A stretch of DNA of 64,000 nucleotides from positions 22,308-86,307 of the forward strand of contig CACZKE010000013.1 of the NCBI GenBank assembly GCA_902781705.1, read 5' to 3'. Positions 1,871 through 6,302 of this stretch are shown here, in pieces. This DNA is from an uncultured Bacteroidia bacterium. Its GTDB lineage: Bacteria; Bacteroidota; Bacteroidia; Bacteroidales; UBA932. Positions within the stretch are counted from its first letter, which is position 1, and each line of letters starts with the position of its first letter. The position numbers and the translations under genes were made by a program. Under the pieces are notes generated by a model. That model was given only the letters and a program-made list of their open reading frames with translations, had not been told where the DNA came from and made no database searches.

Positions 1871-2632
1871 ATGGCTAATTTTCTGACCTCCTCCATCGGC
1901 AAGAAGTTCATCCAGAGCGTCAGCGGCGCTTTCCTGATCATCTTCCTGCTCCTGCACGGTACCATTAATTTCTTCTCCGTCATCGACTCCATGAAGGGTC
2001 AGTTCGGGAAGGTGGCTGAAGATGCCGTCCGTTTCTCCGAGGGCGACGGCTGGTTCCAGCTGGGCTGCGACTTCATGAGCACGCCGGTCATCGACATCAT
2101 GGTTCCGATCCTCGCGCTGGGATTCCTCATCCACATCATCTACGGCATCTGGCTCTCCGTGGAAAACTACACCAAGCGTGGCGGCATCAAGCGCTATGAG
2201 GTGGCGTCCAAGGCGAAGAACGACAGCTGGTCCGCGAAGAACATGTTCGTCCTGGGCATCATCGTCCTGGGCTTCATCGCGTTCCACCTGACCCATTTCT
2301 GGGCCAAGATGCAGCTCCGCGAGTTCATGGGCGGTGAGGCCGAGAACCCTTACTACCTGCTGATCACCACCTTCAAGAACTGGTGGGTCCTCGCCCTGTA
2401 CATCGTGTGGTTCTTCTTCATCTGGCTGCACCTGAACCATGGTTTCTGGTCCATGTTCCAGACCATCGGCTGGAACAACAAGAAGTGGTTCAAACGCCTG
2501 AAAGTCATCGGCATCATCGTGAGCACCTGCATCGTCCTCCTGTTCCTGTGCACCGCGGTCAACGCGTTCGTCGAGGCGAACTTCGTGACGGCTTCCCATC
2601 AGTGGACGGCGCCCCTTCTTGCAAAATTTTAA
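1871..2632 (+). CDS. sdhC: Succinate dehydrogenase/fumarate reductase cytochrome b subunit
   Basis: This is the membrane-anchor, haem b-binding subunit that links quinones to the SdhA/SdhB (FrdA/FrdB) catalytic dimer. The 253-residue protein has about five hydrophobic helices and begins with the GKKFIQSVSGAFLIIFLLLHG segment typical of the fused single-subunit anchor of Bacteroidota. Several membrane histidines (in LLLHG, AFHLTHFW and WLHLNHG) are plausible haem ligands. In this phylum sdhC is normally followed directly by the flavoprotein and iron-sulfur genes. Here it is followed by an unrelated trp leader, so the partners must be elsewhere, lost or lost from the assembly. Confidence 0.92.
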   Translation: MANFLTSSIGKKFIQSVSGAFLIIFLLLHGTINFFSVIDSMKGQFGKVAEDAVRFSEGDGWFQLGCDFMSTPVIDIMVPILALGFLIHIIYGIWLSVENYTKRGGIKRYEVASKAKNDSWSAKNMFVLGIIVLGFIAFHLTHFWAKMQLREFMGGEAENPYYLLITTFKNWWVLALYIVWFFFIWLHLNHGFWSMFQTIGWNNKKWFKRLKVIGIIVSTCIVLLFLCTAVNAFVEANFVTASHQWTAPLLAKF

Positions 2633-2678
2633 AAAATTTCTTGCAATTTAGATTTATTCTCTACATCTTTGCAACAAG

Positions 2679-2735
2679 ATGAGAACAATGATGGTCAACA
2701 ACTTCTGGTGGCGCACTTGCAATTCCGCATTGTAA
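2679..2735 (+). CDS. trpL: trp leader peptide, 18 aa with tandem Trp
   Basis: The ORF reads MRTMMVNNFWWRTCNSAL. The Trp pair is followed at once by the first arm of the attenuator, the expected geometry for a stalling sensor. The stop codon (2733-2735) lies inside region 2, so a ribosome that finishes the peptide masks region 2 and favours the terminator. The ATG is only 7 bases after the putative -7 box, so the transcript may be nearly leaderless. It is below the usual gene-calling size. Confidence 0.8.
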   Translation: MRTMMVNNFWWRTCNSAL

Positions 2736-2772
2736 GTCGCATCGCCATAGGTATAGGAGACCATGAAAAGAT

Positions 2773-2805
2773 AAAGGCGCGCTGACTTACAGCGCGCCTT
2801 TTTTT
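2773..2805 (+). terminator. Attenuator terminator upstream of trpB
   Basis: A perfect 12-bp GC-rich stem (2773-2784 with 2790-2801), 5-nt loop ACTTA, and a T run to 2805. It lies 40 bases before the trpB start, so its role must be conditional termination of the leader transcript. Confidence 0.92.
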
Positions 2806-2844
2806 GTGCAGAAATCAATTGTCAAATACTTAACAAATAACACC

Positions 2845-4209
2845 ATGAGACAGAAAAAGTACCTGCTCCCGGAATCTGAGATTCCGACCCATTTCTTCAA
2901 CATCCAGGCGGTCATGCCCAACAAGCCCCTGCCGTTCCTGAATCCGGCCACCAAGGAGCCCCTGAAGCCCGAAGACCTGTATCCCGTCTTCGTGGAGGAG
3001 TGCGCCCGCCAGGAACTCAACCAGACGGACGAGTGGATTCCCATCCCGGAGGCCGTCCGTGAGCAGTACGCCGCCTACCGCTGCACCCCGCTCGTGCGTG
3101 CCTATGAACTGGAGGAGGCCCTCGGCACCCCGGCCCACATCTATTTCAAGAACGAGTCCGTCTCGCCCGCCGGCAGCCACAAGCTGAACTCCGCCCTGGC
3201 CCAGGCCTACTATGCCAAGCAGCAGGGAATCACCAACATCACCACCGAGACCGGCGCCGGCCAGTGGGGCGGTGCCCTGAGCTACGCGGCCAAGAAGTTC
3301 GGCCTGGAATGCGCCGTCTATATGGTGAAGGTGAGCTACAACCAGAAGCCCTACCGCCGGAGCATCATGCAGACCTTCGGCGCGGCCATCACCCCTTCCC
3401 CGTCCATGTCCACCCGTGCCGGTAAGGATATCCTCACCGTGAATCCCAACGACCAGGGCTCCCTGGGCAGCGCCATTTCCGAGGCGATCGAACTGGCCGT
3501 CACCACGCCCAACTGCAAGTACACCCTGGGGTCCGTGCTCAACCACGTGTGCCTGCACCAGACCGTCATCGGCCTGGAAGCCGAGAAGCAGATGGAACTT
3601 GCCGGCGAGTATCCGGACATCGTGATTGCCTGCTTCGGCGGCGGCTCCAACTTCTCCGGCATCGCCTACCCGTTCATGCGGCACAACATCCGGGACGGCA
3701 AGAAGACCCGCTTCATCGCCGCCGAGCCGGCCAGCTGCCCCAAGCTGACCCGCGGCAAGTTCGAGTATGACTTCGGCGACGAGGCCGGCATGACCCCGCT
3801 CCTTCCCATGTACACGCTGGGTCACACCTTCAAGCCCGCGACCATCCATGCCGGCGGACTCCGCTACCACGGGGCCGGCGTCATCATGTCCCAGCTCATG
3901 AAGGACGGCTTCATGGAGGCCATCGACCTGGACCAGACCGAGACCTTCAAGGCCGGCATCCTTTTCGCCCAGACCGAGGGCATCATCCCGGCTCCGGAGT
4001 CCTGCCACGCCATCGCCGCCACCATCCGGGAGGCCCTGAAGTGCAAGGAGACCGGCGAGCAGAAGACCATCCTCTTCAACCTGTCCGGCCACGGCTTCGT
4101 GGACATGGCCGCCTACGACCAGTACATCTCCGGCGAGCTGCAGGACTACCACCTGAGCGACGAGGAACTTGCCAAGTATATCAAGAGTGCCGATGTGCTG
4201 AATCAGTAA
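2845..4209 (+). CDS. trpB: Tryptophan synthase beta chain, TrpB2 type
   Basis: A PLP enzyme that joins indole and serine to make tryptophan. At 454 residues it is longer than classical TrpB (about 400), and it has the N-terminal extension and sequence style of the TrpB2 class. The PLP lysine is K113 in SHKLNSA, and the phosphate-binding glycine loop is GGGSNFSG. I chose the ATG at 2845; an in-frame GTG at 2806 would start in the terminator tail. There is no trpA or other trp gene nearby. The attenuator upstream ties its expression to charged tRNA-Trp, which supports a role in tryptophan synthesis, perhaps by salvaging environmental indole (inference). Confidence 0.93.
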   Translation: MRQKKYLLPESEIPTHFFNIQAVMPNKPLPFLNPATKEPLKPEDLYPVFVEECARQELNQTDEWIPIPEAVREQYAAYRCTPLVRAYELEEALGTPAHIYFKNESVSPAGSHKLNSALAQAYYAKQQGITNITTETGAGQWGGALSYAAKKFGLECAVYMVKVSYNQKPYRRSIMQTFGAAITPSPSMSTRAGKDILTVNPNDQGSLGSAISEAIELAVTTPNCKYTLGSVLNHVCLHQTVIGLEAEKQMELAGEYPDIVIACFGGGSNFSGIAYPFMRHNIRDGKKTRFIAAEPASCPKLTRGKFEYDFGDEAGMTPLLPMYTLGHTFKPATIHAGGLRYHGAGVIMSQLMKDGFMEAIDLDQTETFKAGILFAQTEGIIPAPESCHAIAATIREALKCKETGEQKTILFNLSGHGFVDMAAYDQYISGELQDYHLSDEELAKYIKSADVLNQ

Positions 4210-4434: not shown

Positions 4435-6237
4435 TTACATCGGCAAGGTCTTTTCCCGCAGCCAGGCAGCGATTTCCGCGGGGAGGCGGGGCGAGAGGGT
4501 GCGGTACACGTGCTCGTTGTAGGCGTTGAGCCAGGCGATCTCCTCCCGGGTCATCAGGTCACGGACCAGGACCGAGGTGTCGTAGTGGCAGAGGGTGAGG
4601 GGCTCGAAGGAGTACCAGGTGCCGAAGTCGTTCGTGCCGTCTTCGCGTACGAGGACCACGTTCTCATGGCGTACGCCGTGCATGCCTTCCCGGTACAGGC
4701 CCGGTTCGATCGTATTGATGATGCCCGGGATGTACGGATAGGCGTTGAAGTTCTGCCGGAACTCCTGCGGTCCTTCGTGGACATTGAGGAAGAATCCCAC
4801 GCCATGGCCGGTGCCATGGCCGAAGTTACGCTTGCTCTGCCAGAGGGCGTTGCGGGCGAGGATGTCCAGGTGACAGCCGCAGGTTCCCTGGGGGAACACG
4901 GCCATGGACAGGTCGATATGGCATTTCATCACGAGGGTGTAATCCTCCTTCTCCAAGGCGGTGCAGGGGCCCATGGGCACGGTACGGGTGATGTCCGTGG
5001 TGCCGAACAGGTACTGTCCGCCGGAATCGCAGAGGTAGAGCCCGTGCGGCTCCAGGACCGGTGCGTTTTCATGCGGCGTGACATAGTGCGGCAGGGCTGC
5101 GCCGGGGCCGTAGGCCGATATGGTCTCGAAACTGTCTCCCCGGTAGCCCGGAATCTCCGCCCGGAGGGACTGGAGTTTGCAGGCCGCCTGCCACTCGTCC
5201 ACCAGGCCGGCCTGGCCTTCCAGCCAGTAGAGGAACTTCTCCACGGCGAGGCCGTCCTCGAGGTGCGCCTCCCGCATGCCCTCGATCTCGACCGGATTTT
5301 TCACGGATTTCTTGAGCGGGATGGGCGAAAGGCCTTCCACGACATCGTAGTCCCCCTCCTTCAGCGCCTCGCGGATATGGATGTTCAGCGTGCCCGGATC
5401 CACATAGATCCGGTCCACGTCGTTATGGACATAGGTAGAGAGCGCCAGGACGGCCTCTTCGTAATCGCAGAGGGTGACCTCGTCGGCGGCCAGTTCGTCG
5501 AAGCTCGCCTGCGTTTCCTCGTCGGGAGCGGCAAAGGCATCCTTGCGGACGAACCAGTACACCTGCTCCATGGTCACGAGCAGGTACGAAATCACGACCG
5601 GATTGTATTCCACGTCGGAGCCGCGGACATTCAGCAGCCAGGCGATCTCGTCGAGGGCCGTCACCAGGAAAGCGTCCACCCCCTGGACGATCATCCACTT
5701 GCGGAGCCAATGGATCCGGGCCTCCCGGGATTCGCCCGTCAGGTCCTCCCCGAGCGTGATGATGGGGGTCGACGGAATGGCGGGGCGGTCTTTCCACATC
5801 GGCGACAGCAAATCAGGGACGGACACAACCTGAACCGGGACATCGAACGCCTGCCGAAGCACCGCAATCGCGGAAACGGTCTGGCACAGGCCGTCCACGG
5901 CGATCACCGGCTCCTCAAATCCCCGCGACGCAAGCCACTGGGGGATAGGCACTTGTTCGGGAACCCGCATCTTGTGCAGTTCGATACCCGTCCCGGCGAG
6001 TTGCTTCACCGCTTGGATGAAATACCGCGTGTCGGTCCAGAGCCCGGCGTGGTCCAGGGTGATGCACAGGTCACCCGCCTCCCCGGTAAAACCGGACACC
6101 CACTCGACCTGCTTCCACCGGCGGGCCGGATACTCGCTGGCATGGGGATCGCTCCCCGTAAGGATGACGGCATCCCAGCCCCTTTCCCGCATCAGGGAAC
6201 GGATGGCTTCCACGCGCTGCGCAAAGATGTTTTCCAT
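4435..6237 (-). CDS. pepP: Xaa-Pro aminopeptidase, M24B family
   Basis: A metallopeptidase that removes the N-terminal residue before proline. The roughly 600-residue length fits the three-domain form: two creatinase-like N-terminal domains and a C-terminal pita-bread catalytic domain. Visible metal-site motifs are DSGGQYLFGTTDITRT (two Asp ligands), HGTGHGVG (His) and NTIEPGLY (Glu), followed by a terminal Glu region. I chose the start MENIFAQRVEAIRS at 6237. A longer frame to 6285 would run through the promoter. The gene is divergent from the coiled-coil gene at 6303 and shares a palindromic promoter with it. Confidence 0.93.
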   Translation of the reverse strand: MENIFAQRVEAIRSLMRERGWDAVILTGSDPHASEYPARRWKQVEWVSGFTGEAGDLCITLDHAGLWTDTRYFIQAVKQLAGTGIELHKMRVPEQVPIPQWLASRGFEEPVIAVDGLCQTVSAIAVLRQAFDVPVQVVSVPDLLSPMWKDRPAIPSTPIITLGEDLTGESREARIHWLRKWMIVQGVDAFLVTALDEIAWLLNVRGSDVEYNPVVISYLLVTMEQVYWFVRKDAFAAPDEETQASFDELAADEVTLCDYEEAVLALSTYVHNDVDRIYVDPGTLNIHIREALKEGDYDVVEGLSPIPLKKSVKNPVEIEGMREAHLEDGLAVEKFLYWLEGQAGLVDEWQAACKLQSLRAEIPGYRGDSFETISAYGPGAALPHYVTPHENAPVLEPHGLYLCDSGGQYLFGTTDITRTVPMGPCTALEKEDYTLVMKCHIDLSMAVFPQGTCGCHLDILARNALWQSKRNFGHGTGHGVGFFLNVHEGPQEFRQNFNAYPYIPGIINTIEPGLYREGMHGVRHENVVLVREDGTNDFGTWYSFEPLTLCHYDTSVLVRDLMTREEIAWLNAYNEHVYRTLSPRLPAEIAAWLREKTLPM

Positions 6238-6260
6238 GGTACGATTATTGACAATTTTCA

Positions 6261-6278
6261 CAAATATAGATATATTTG
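6261..6278. promoter_or_regulatory. Back-to-back divergent -7 boxes (pepP / 6303 gene)
   Basis: The 18 bases CAAATATAGATATATTTG hold a leftward TATATTTG (6261-6268, for pepP) and a rightward TATATTTG (6271-6278, for the gene at 6303), only 2 bp apart. Both match the -7 consensus exactly. The arrangement is a near-perfect palindrome, so two polymerases could not occupy both at once. Confidence 0.75.
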
Positions 6279-6302
6279 CAGACAATTAAAACGAAAAGAA
6301 CG

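Follow-up and report, generated by a model that had tools for sequence, protein, structure and literature searches.

What does a stand-alone trpB2 gene do for its host, and what controls it? For stand-alone TrpB2 the first question has had no sure answer for a long time, and a conserved tryptophan-sensing switch in front of the gene gives a separate line of evidence that the enzyme contributes to the tryptophan pool. Such a gene lies, behind a short leader, in the 64,000-nucleotide stretch of DNA analysed here (the window), which comes from an uncultured Bacteroidia bacterium. Judged from its sequence, the leader is very probably a ribosome-mediated tryptophan attenuator of trpB2, whose product most likely turns scavenged indole into tryptophan.

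The gap between the upstream sdhC-like gene and trpB2 is 212 nt and contains a leader ORF and a T7-tailed hairpin (Table 1). As claimed in an earlier note on this DNA, the leader encodes 18 residues with tandem Trp codons, both read directly, and ends in a terminator; the terminator hairpin has a folding energy of -21.3 kcal/mol. The pairings proposed there, 2711-2723/2729-2740 (1:2), 2732-2738/2784-2790 (2:3) and the terminator stem (3:4), are all present and folding yields the same helices. The antiterminator pairs in full are 2784-2791/2731-2738, 2781-2782/2739-2740 and 2776-2779/2743-2746. The leader ORF has further in-frame ATGs at 2688 and 2691. Its stop codon, TAA at 2733-2735, falls inside segment 2, and trpB2 starts 109 nt past it. 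By the known footprint sizes of the ribosome, a ribosome at the Trp codons would mask segment 1 and leave 2729-2740 free, and one at the stop codon would occupy segment 2. The geometry of the leader thus fits a ribosome switch.

Table 1. Features of the trpB2 locus in the window, and lone trpB1 loci of sister genera.
Feature	Position or locus	Strand	Details and basis
sdhC-like neighbour (b558 family), outside the trpB2 unit	1871..2632	+	profile match
Candidate Bacteroidota-type promoter	2637..2671	+	TTTCTTGC at 2637-2644, TACATCTTTG at 2662-2671; sequence
Leader peptide ORF, MRTMMVNNFWWRTCNSAL, 18 aa	2679..2735	+	direct sequence read; similar ORFs in relatives
Tandem Trp codons TGGTGG, proposed stall site	2706..2711	+	direct sequence read
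Segment 1	2702..2723	+	partner 2729-2751; fold and covariation
Segment 2, core 2729-2740	2729..2751	+	alternative partners segment 1 and segment 3; fold and covariation
Segment 3 (antiterminator)	2776..2791	+	fold, pairing in relatives, cognate test
Terminator	2773..2805	+	hairpin 2773-2784/2790-2801, T7 2799-2805; fold and covariation
trpB2, 454 aa, TrpB-like PLP enzyme	2845..4209	+	TIGR01415, PRK12391
Gene 3' of trpB2	4435-6285	opposite to trpB2	
Lone trpB1 with Bacteroid-trp-type leader	L188/L210 (G154), L195/L211 (G011), L197/L212 (G092), L198 (G049)		

The downstream element of the candidate promoter ends 7 nt 5' of the leader ATG. Of 64 leader loci, 31 have an exact TAnnTTTG, the Bacteroidota promoter motif, starting 25-75 nt before the tandem Trp codons, where chance would give 4.5%; the form in the window is not an exact one. 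With its promoter element so near the ATG, the leader mRNA may have hardly any 5' untranslated region.

From these parts we infer the following mechanism. Transcription would start just 5' of the leader ORF. When charged tRNA-Trp is ample, the ribosome would reach the stop codon in segment 2, 3:4 would pair and RNA polymerase would terminate before trpB2. If charged tRNA-Trp runs low, stalling at the two Trp codons would place the ribosome over segment 1. With segment 1 covered, 2:3 would pair, the terminator would be blocked and trpB2 would be transcribed. The switch would most likely turn on the conversion of scavenged indole and serine to tryptophan, because TrpB2 is the only visible tryptophan synthase gene in the genome.

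The folding energy of the entire leader is -54.4 kcal/mol, compared with -34.1 (sd 3.6) for shuffled sequences (z -5.7, 0 of 200). The terminator is the stable fold when 2724-2812 is present. The earlier note had suggested folding with segment 1 masked. The 2:3 helix, with the core pairing GTAAGTC/GACTTAC at 2732-2738/2784-2790, is the minimum-energy fold once segment 1 is removed and the RNA ends at 2791, inside the terminator, but for an RNA of this composition it does not stand out (z -1.3; 23 of 200 shuffles equally good). The support for 2:3 therefore comes from relatives.

Leaders were sought at 110 trpB2 loci. The 199 family genomes supplied 30 of these, a part of their matches, and GTDB contigs the other 80, the best of at least 594, so that the sample favours near relatives. 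A cut locus (L076) was dropped, giving 109 loci, or 107 distinct ones after two duplicate pairs were merged. A short ORF with tandem TGG codons (WW ORF) lies within 300 nt upstream of trpB2 in 65/109 loci (65/107 distinct). Sorted by TrpB2 identity, it is found at 54 of 59 loci at 84.5% and above (53 without the false L068), at 4 of 7 (4 of 6 distinct) between 80 and 84.5%, and at 7 of 43 (7 of 42 distinct) below 80%. Five of the 59 closest loci are without a WW ORF, and a sixth, L068, has only a false one; it was rejected as a leader locus, its WW sitting inside sdhC. Upstream of the remaining ORFs at the same loci, counting those of 200 aa or longer, the rate was 4/243, and in Markov sequences 37/2,180. 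WW short ORFs are not rare when taken alone, with three on both strands of the whole 64 kb, but their conservation, position and structure jointly exceed chance. Sixty further upstream regions from the family, a part of those remaining, gave 33 WW ORFs, one of which (G042, MWWD) is clearly spurious.

A TrpB2 tree, made quickly from 109 rows, needs 13 changes to explain which rows have the leader, compared with 33.6 for shuffled labels; 67 rows were labelled as having it (the 65 minus L068, plus L024, L028 and L030). By this tree the leader is clustered in its distribution, with several losses or gains. The own genus in the 199-genome sample has trpB2 in 15/19 genomes, and the leader is present in only four of these 15 (G000, G129, G084 and G195). 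Of the 11 leaderless genomes, nine have sdhC just upstream of trpB2 and a plain terminator in the gap. Leader control is therefore not essential to trpB2 function in this genus.

A rival reading makes the hairpin just a terminator of the upstream sdhC, with the WW ORF a chance ORF before it. The sdhC-like gene is on the same strand only 212 nt away, leaderless sdhC-trpB2 pairs also have an intergenic terminator, and WW short ORFs do arise by chance. A terminator within 190 nt upstream is found at 61/65 WW-ORF loci (the 66 leader loci minus L070, which is too short), at 16/43 trpB2 loci without a WW ORF and at 23/120 control genes. This reading is nevertheless very unlikely. An sdhC-like match is present upstream at 21/65 leader loci, L068 among them, and absent from the upstream DNA of the other 44, where that of L070 and L075 is short; WW ORFs occur far above the control rates; and the partners of both 1:2 and 2:3 are maintained, neither of which a plain terminator needs. 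The hairpin may serve both sdhC and trpB2.

The sdhC-trpB2 adjacency is common to many relatives. Short-gap pairs without a Trp leader occur at L006, L008, L017-L023, L041, L052, L069, L097 and L105, and a plain terminator was found in the 12 leaderless gaps inspected, a set that does not include L097 and L105. For sdhA the genome has a single match (TIGR01811), at G000:C5:78043-79869 on a contig other than that of the sdhC-like gene and trpB2. Near one trpB2 locus a SAM-II riboswitch scores over the gathering threshold (L059:1377-1443).

Maintenance of the helices was measured on an alignment of 32 of the 66 leaders, picked by eye for their likeness to that of the window. The Trp codons were part of this selection, so their invariance in the alignment is circular. 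For stems 1:2 and 3:4, 86.2% of cells are paired, and 67 cells are changed on both sides compared with 27.0 in shuffled alignments (0/500). Five measures were taken on these stems, and the one for further pair types is not above the shuffles (44 vs 42.5, 143/500). The 8-pair core of 2:3 is paired in 96.3% of cells and barely varies, so that its covariation is weak (9 cells vs 5.7, 39/500). Outside the 32-member group the leaders are of many sequence types with one shared plan. By one criterion a terminator is present in 57/66 leaders, and it is also present in 31/31 further leaders from other genera.

Since covariation of 2:3 is weak within one leader family, cognate and non-cognate duplexes were compared between dissimilar leaders. 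The pool consisted of 87 leaders with a terminator; L068 and nine leaders without one were excluded. In 22 dissimilar leaders the mean cognate 2:3 duplex is -17.58 kcal/mol, compared with -13.27 (sd 0.66) when partners are permuted (0/20,000), and a leader's own segment 3 is the single best partner of its segment 2 in only 6/22. Clustering by gapped identity had given three groups only, with 1,742/10,000 permutations as good, and decided nothing. Clustering by k-mers was adopted after that result, at thresholds leaving 40, 34 and 22 leaders, all with 0/20,000; the strictest is quoted. The earlier note would have been refuted had relatives conserved neither the Trp codons nor the pairings. Both are conserved: 1:2 and 3:4 covary and 2:3 is upheld by the cognate comparison. 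The occurrence of the leader is patchy, as the own genus illustrates.

In the own genome a covariance model of the 32 aligned trpB2 leaders, R1, matches nothing but the trpB2 leader itself. Across the genus it has matches with E below 1e-6 in 15/41 genomes. Ten of these matches were fetched as loci, three of them (own genome, L173, L178) already in the alignment and seven new. Each of the ten has a WW ORF and stands in front of a trpB2 gene.

The leader might govern trpB2 in some other way, for example through coupled translation, an RNA-binding protein or trans action of the leader peptide, an ability that has been described for leader peptides (PMC7298713). A hairpin with a U-tract between leader and gene, together with a maintained competing helix, is a sign of transcription attenuation, and 109 nt from leader stop to trpB2 start would be too far for simple coupling. 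Control of this other kind is most improbable, and attenuation by a translating ribosome remains the preferred reading of the leader.

The enzyme itself is a clear member of the TrpB2 family. It scores 598.9 bits against TIGR01415 (cut-off 518.85) and 695.6 bits against PRK12391 (cut-off 366), and its best solved chains are 6hul, deposited as beta chain 1, followed by 4qys and 6hte, beta chain 2. TIGR01415 is labelled a 'hypothetical equivalog' by NCBI. The own genome, which is 99% complete, has no match to trpA, trpC, trpD or a second trpB, an absence that is likely rather than certain, and none to tryptophanase. A trpC match is missing in 103/121 family genomes with trpB2, many of which are drafts, so that some of these absences are false. 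With no match to the other trp genes, free indole is therefore the only visible substrate route for TrpB2, and the enzyme most likely salvages indole to make tryptophan. The earlier note had argued that the control signal itself points to a tryptophan-making enzyme, an argument that gains from the missing trpA, trpC, trpD and second-trpB matches.

The TrpB2 of B. thetaiotaomicron, BT_RS23500, is reported to be 59% identical to a Thermotoga TrpB2, and to aid an E. coli trpA mutant only beside wild-type E. coli, for which the authors credit secreted indole (PMC11535334). Indole salvage via TrpB is reported as shown in bifidobacteria (PMC11085991). The Trp auxotroph classes of gut genomes that appear in the available part of PMC9026213 include none with TrpB2 alone.

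An IorA-like indolepyruvate oxidoreductase subunit is encoded in the own genome at G000:C12:46359-47948, with a score of 527 bits, below the cut-off of 650.9. It might leave a second route to tryptophan, from indoleacetate. In five family genomes Phe codons as well as Trp codons are abundant in the trpB2 leader, for example FFFWRAWFWQ (L028, L030, and genomes G124, G102 and G051 at L128, L130 and L131). These leaders have terminators, and their 2:3 duplexes are weak (-6.7 to -12.0). A PaaK-like gene follows trpB2 at L208 and L209, the two loci checked by profile, with scores below the curated cut-offs. Such a leader is possibly a two-amino-acid attenuator, and it is offered as a lead only.

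These observations, with the 'hypothetical equivalog' label of TIGR01415, speak for an alternative in which the leader is an attenuator as proposed, but TrpB2 catalyses another beta-replacement or a step near tryptophan supply from arylacetates. Control by Trp codons best fits an enzyme that makes tryptophan, no other tryptophan synthase was found in the genome, and the related TrpB2 appears to use indole in E. coli (PMC11535334). The alternative is thus unlikely, and indole-dependent tryptophan synthesis is the preferred role.

The distribution of tryptophanase was compared with that of trpB2, with a strong match defined by a self-chosen cut of E below 1e-190, plus the partial match in G068; six weak or partial matches were scored as none. 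Ignoring kinship, a strong match is present in 47/121 family genomes with trpB2 and 50/78 without (p 0.0008), and in the own genus in 1/15 with and 4/4 without (p 0.0013). Among genomes with trpB2 it is found in 21/48 with the leader compared with 9/42 without (p 0.03, kinship again ignored). That tryptophanase is commoner with the leader, and is also matched in the four lone-trpB1 genomes described below, sits awkwardly with a picture of plain indole consumption. An avoidance between trpB2 and tryptophanase is not leaned on, because the cut was self-chosen, kinship was ignored and the presence of the leader goes the opposite way.

Leaders of a related kind stand before trpB1 in sister genera. 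A leader ORF rich in Trp codons is present in 17 of 20 trpB1 upstream regions, and for 16 of the 17 the best hairpin found lies between leader and gene. The Rfam family RF01692 (Bacteroid-trp) scores over gathering in 3/20 of these regions, and another five match it with E no higher than 0.05. The model R1, although built from trpB2 leaders only, matches trpB1 leaders at L181 (49.0 bits), L197 (48.6) and L188 (44.3), and the four pairwise alignments inspected span the whole attenuator or nearly so. These cross-matches and alignments hint at common ancestry with Bacteroid-trp, though part of the likeness may come from the function they have in common.

Three genomes of genus g15 in which neither trpA nor trpC was matched (G134, G193 and G079) have the trpB2 leader WWWRDSRFK, which is close to the trpB1 leaders of G161, G187, G014 and G144 (e.g. 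WWWRDSRIQNS). The latter four have their own trpB2 without a WW leader. A takeover of the trp-operon site by trpB2 was considered for g15, but the stretches compared have no synteny in common, so that synteny does not show how the arrangement arose.

Thirteen of the 17 genomes with a trpB1 leader have trpA, trpC or trpD. In the other four (G154, G011, G092 and G049; Table 1) no match to trpA, trpC, trpD or trpB2 was found. Three of the four lone trpB1 genes were checked and score 559 to 562 bits against TIGR00263 (cut-off 392.45), which makes them trpB1 proper. All four genomes also have a strong tryptophanase match. A scan of the neighbours around lone trpB1 in three genomes matched no family; close behind it, both G154 and G092 have a pair of unassigned genes of about 322 and 777 aa. 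A lone trpB1 with a Trp leader in front thus occurs as well, a parallel to the trpB2 case of the window.

A wider picture can be drawn tentatively. Bacteroidales that lost the trp pathway may have kept a Trp-attenuated lone trpB, either trpB2 or, in at least four sister genomes, trpB1, behind a relative of the trp-operon attenuator, for use of their neighbours' indole. One genus, with its Phe and Trp leader before trpB2 and a PaaK-like gene, would perhaps sense both amino acids. The locus points to indole as a nutrient traded between gut bacteria.

How does the leader relate to known attenuators? RF00513 (Trp_leader), known from proteobacterial trp operons, has the same plan from the Trp codons through the terminator, and it matches the window over its full length at 2700-2805 with 36.7 bits, under the gathering score of 41. 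At gathering scores Rfam has no match in the window, and RF01692 none in 20 trpB2 loci of relatives; at E up to 0.05 RF01692 has none in 20 other trpB2 loci. The window enzyme belongs to the same TIGR01415/PRK12391 family as BT_RS23500 and the Thermotoga TrpB2. The open-access literature searched, mostly abstracts, reports no attenuator on trpB2. For a flavobacterium, strong clues to leader-peptide attenuation upstream of amino-acid operons are reported (PMC9723704). The earlier note's remark that such attenuation is best known from Proteobacteria has to be amended, since RF01692 is catalogued as a Trp leader of Bacteroidota (PMC2864571) and is found before trpB1 in the sister genera. RF01692 resembles the window leader in phylum, in its Trp-codon leader and in its competing helices. 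It differs in that the window scores 24.9 bits, under the gathering score of 49, and in that the window copy serves a stand-alone trpB2. The kind of attenuator is thus known in the phylum, and what is new here is a sequence variant under the Rfam thresholds and its target gene, trpB2, which adds to the targets of the trp attenuators of Bacteroidota.
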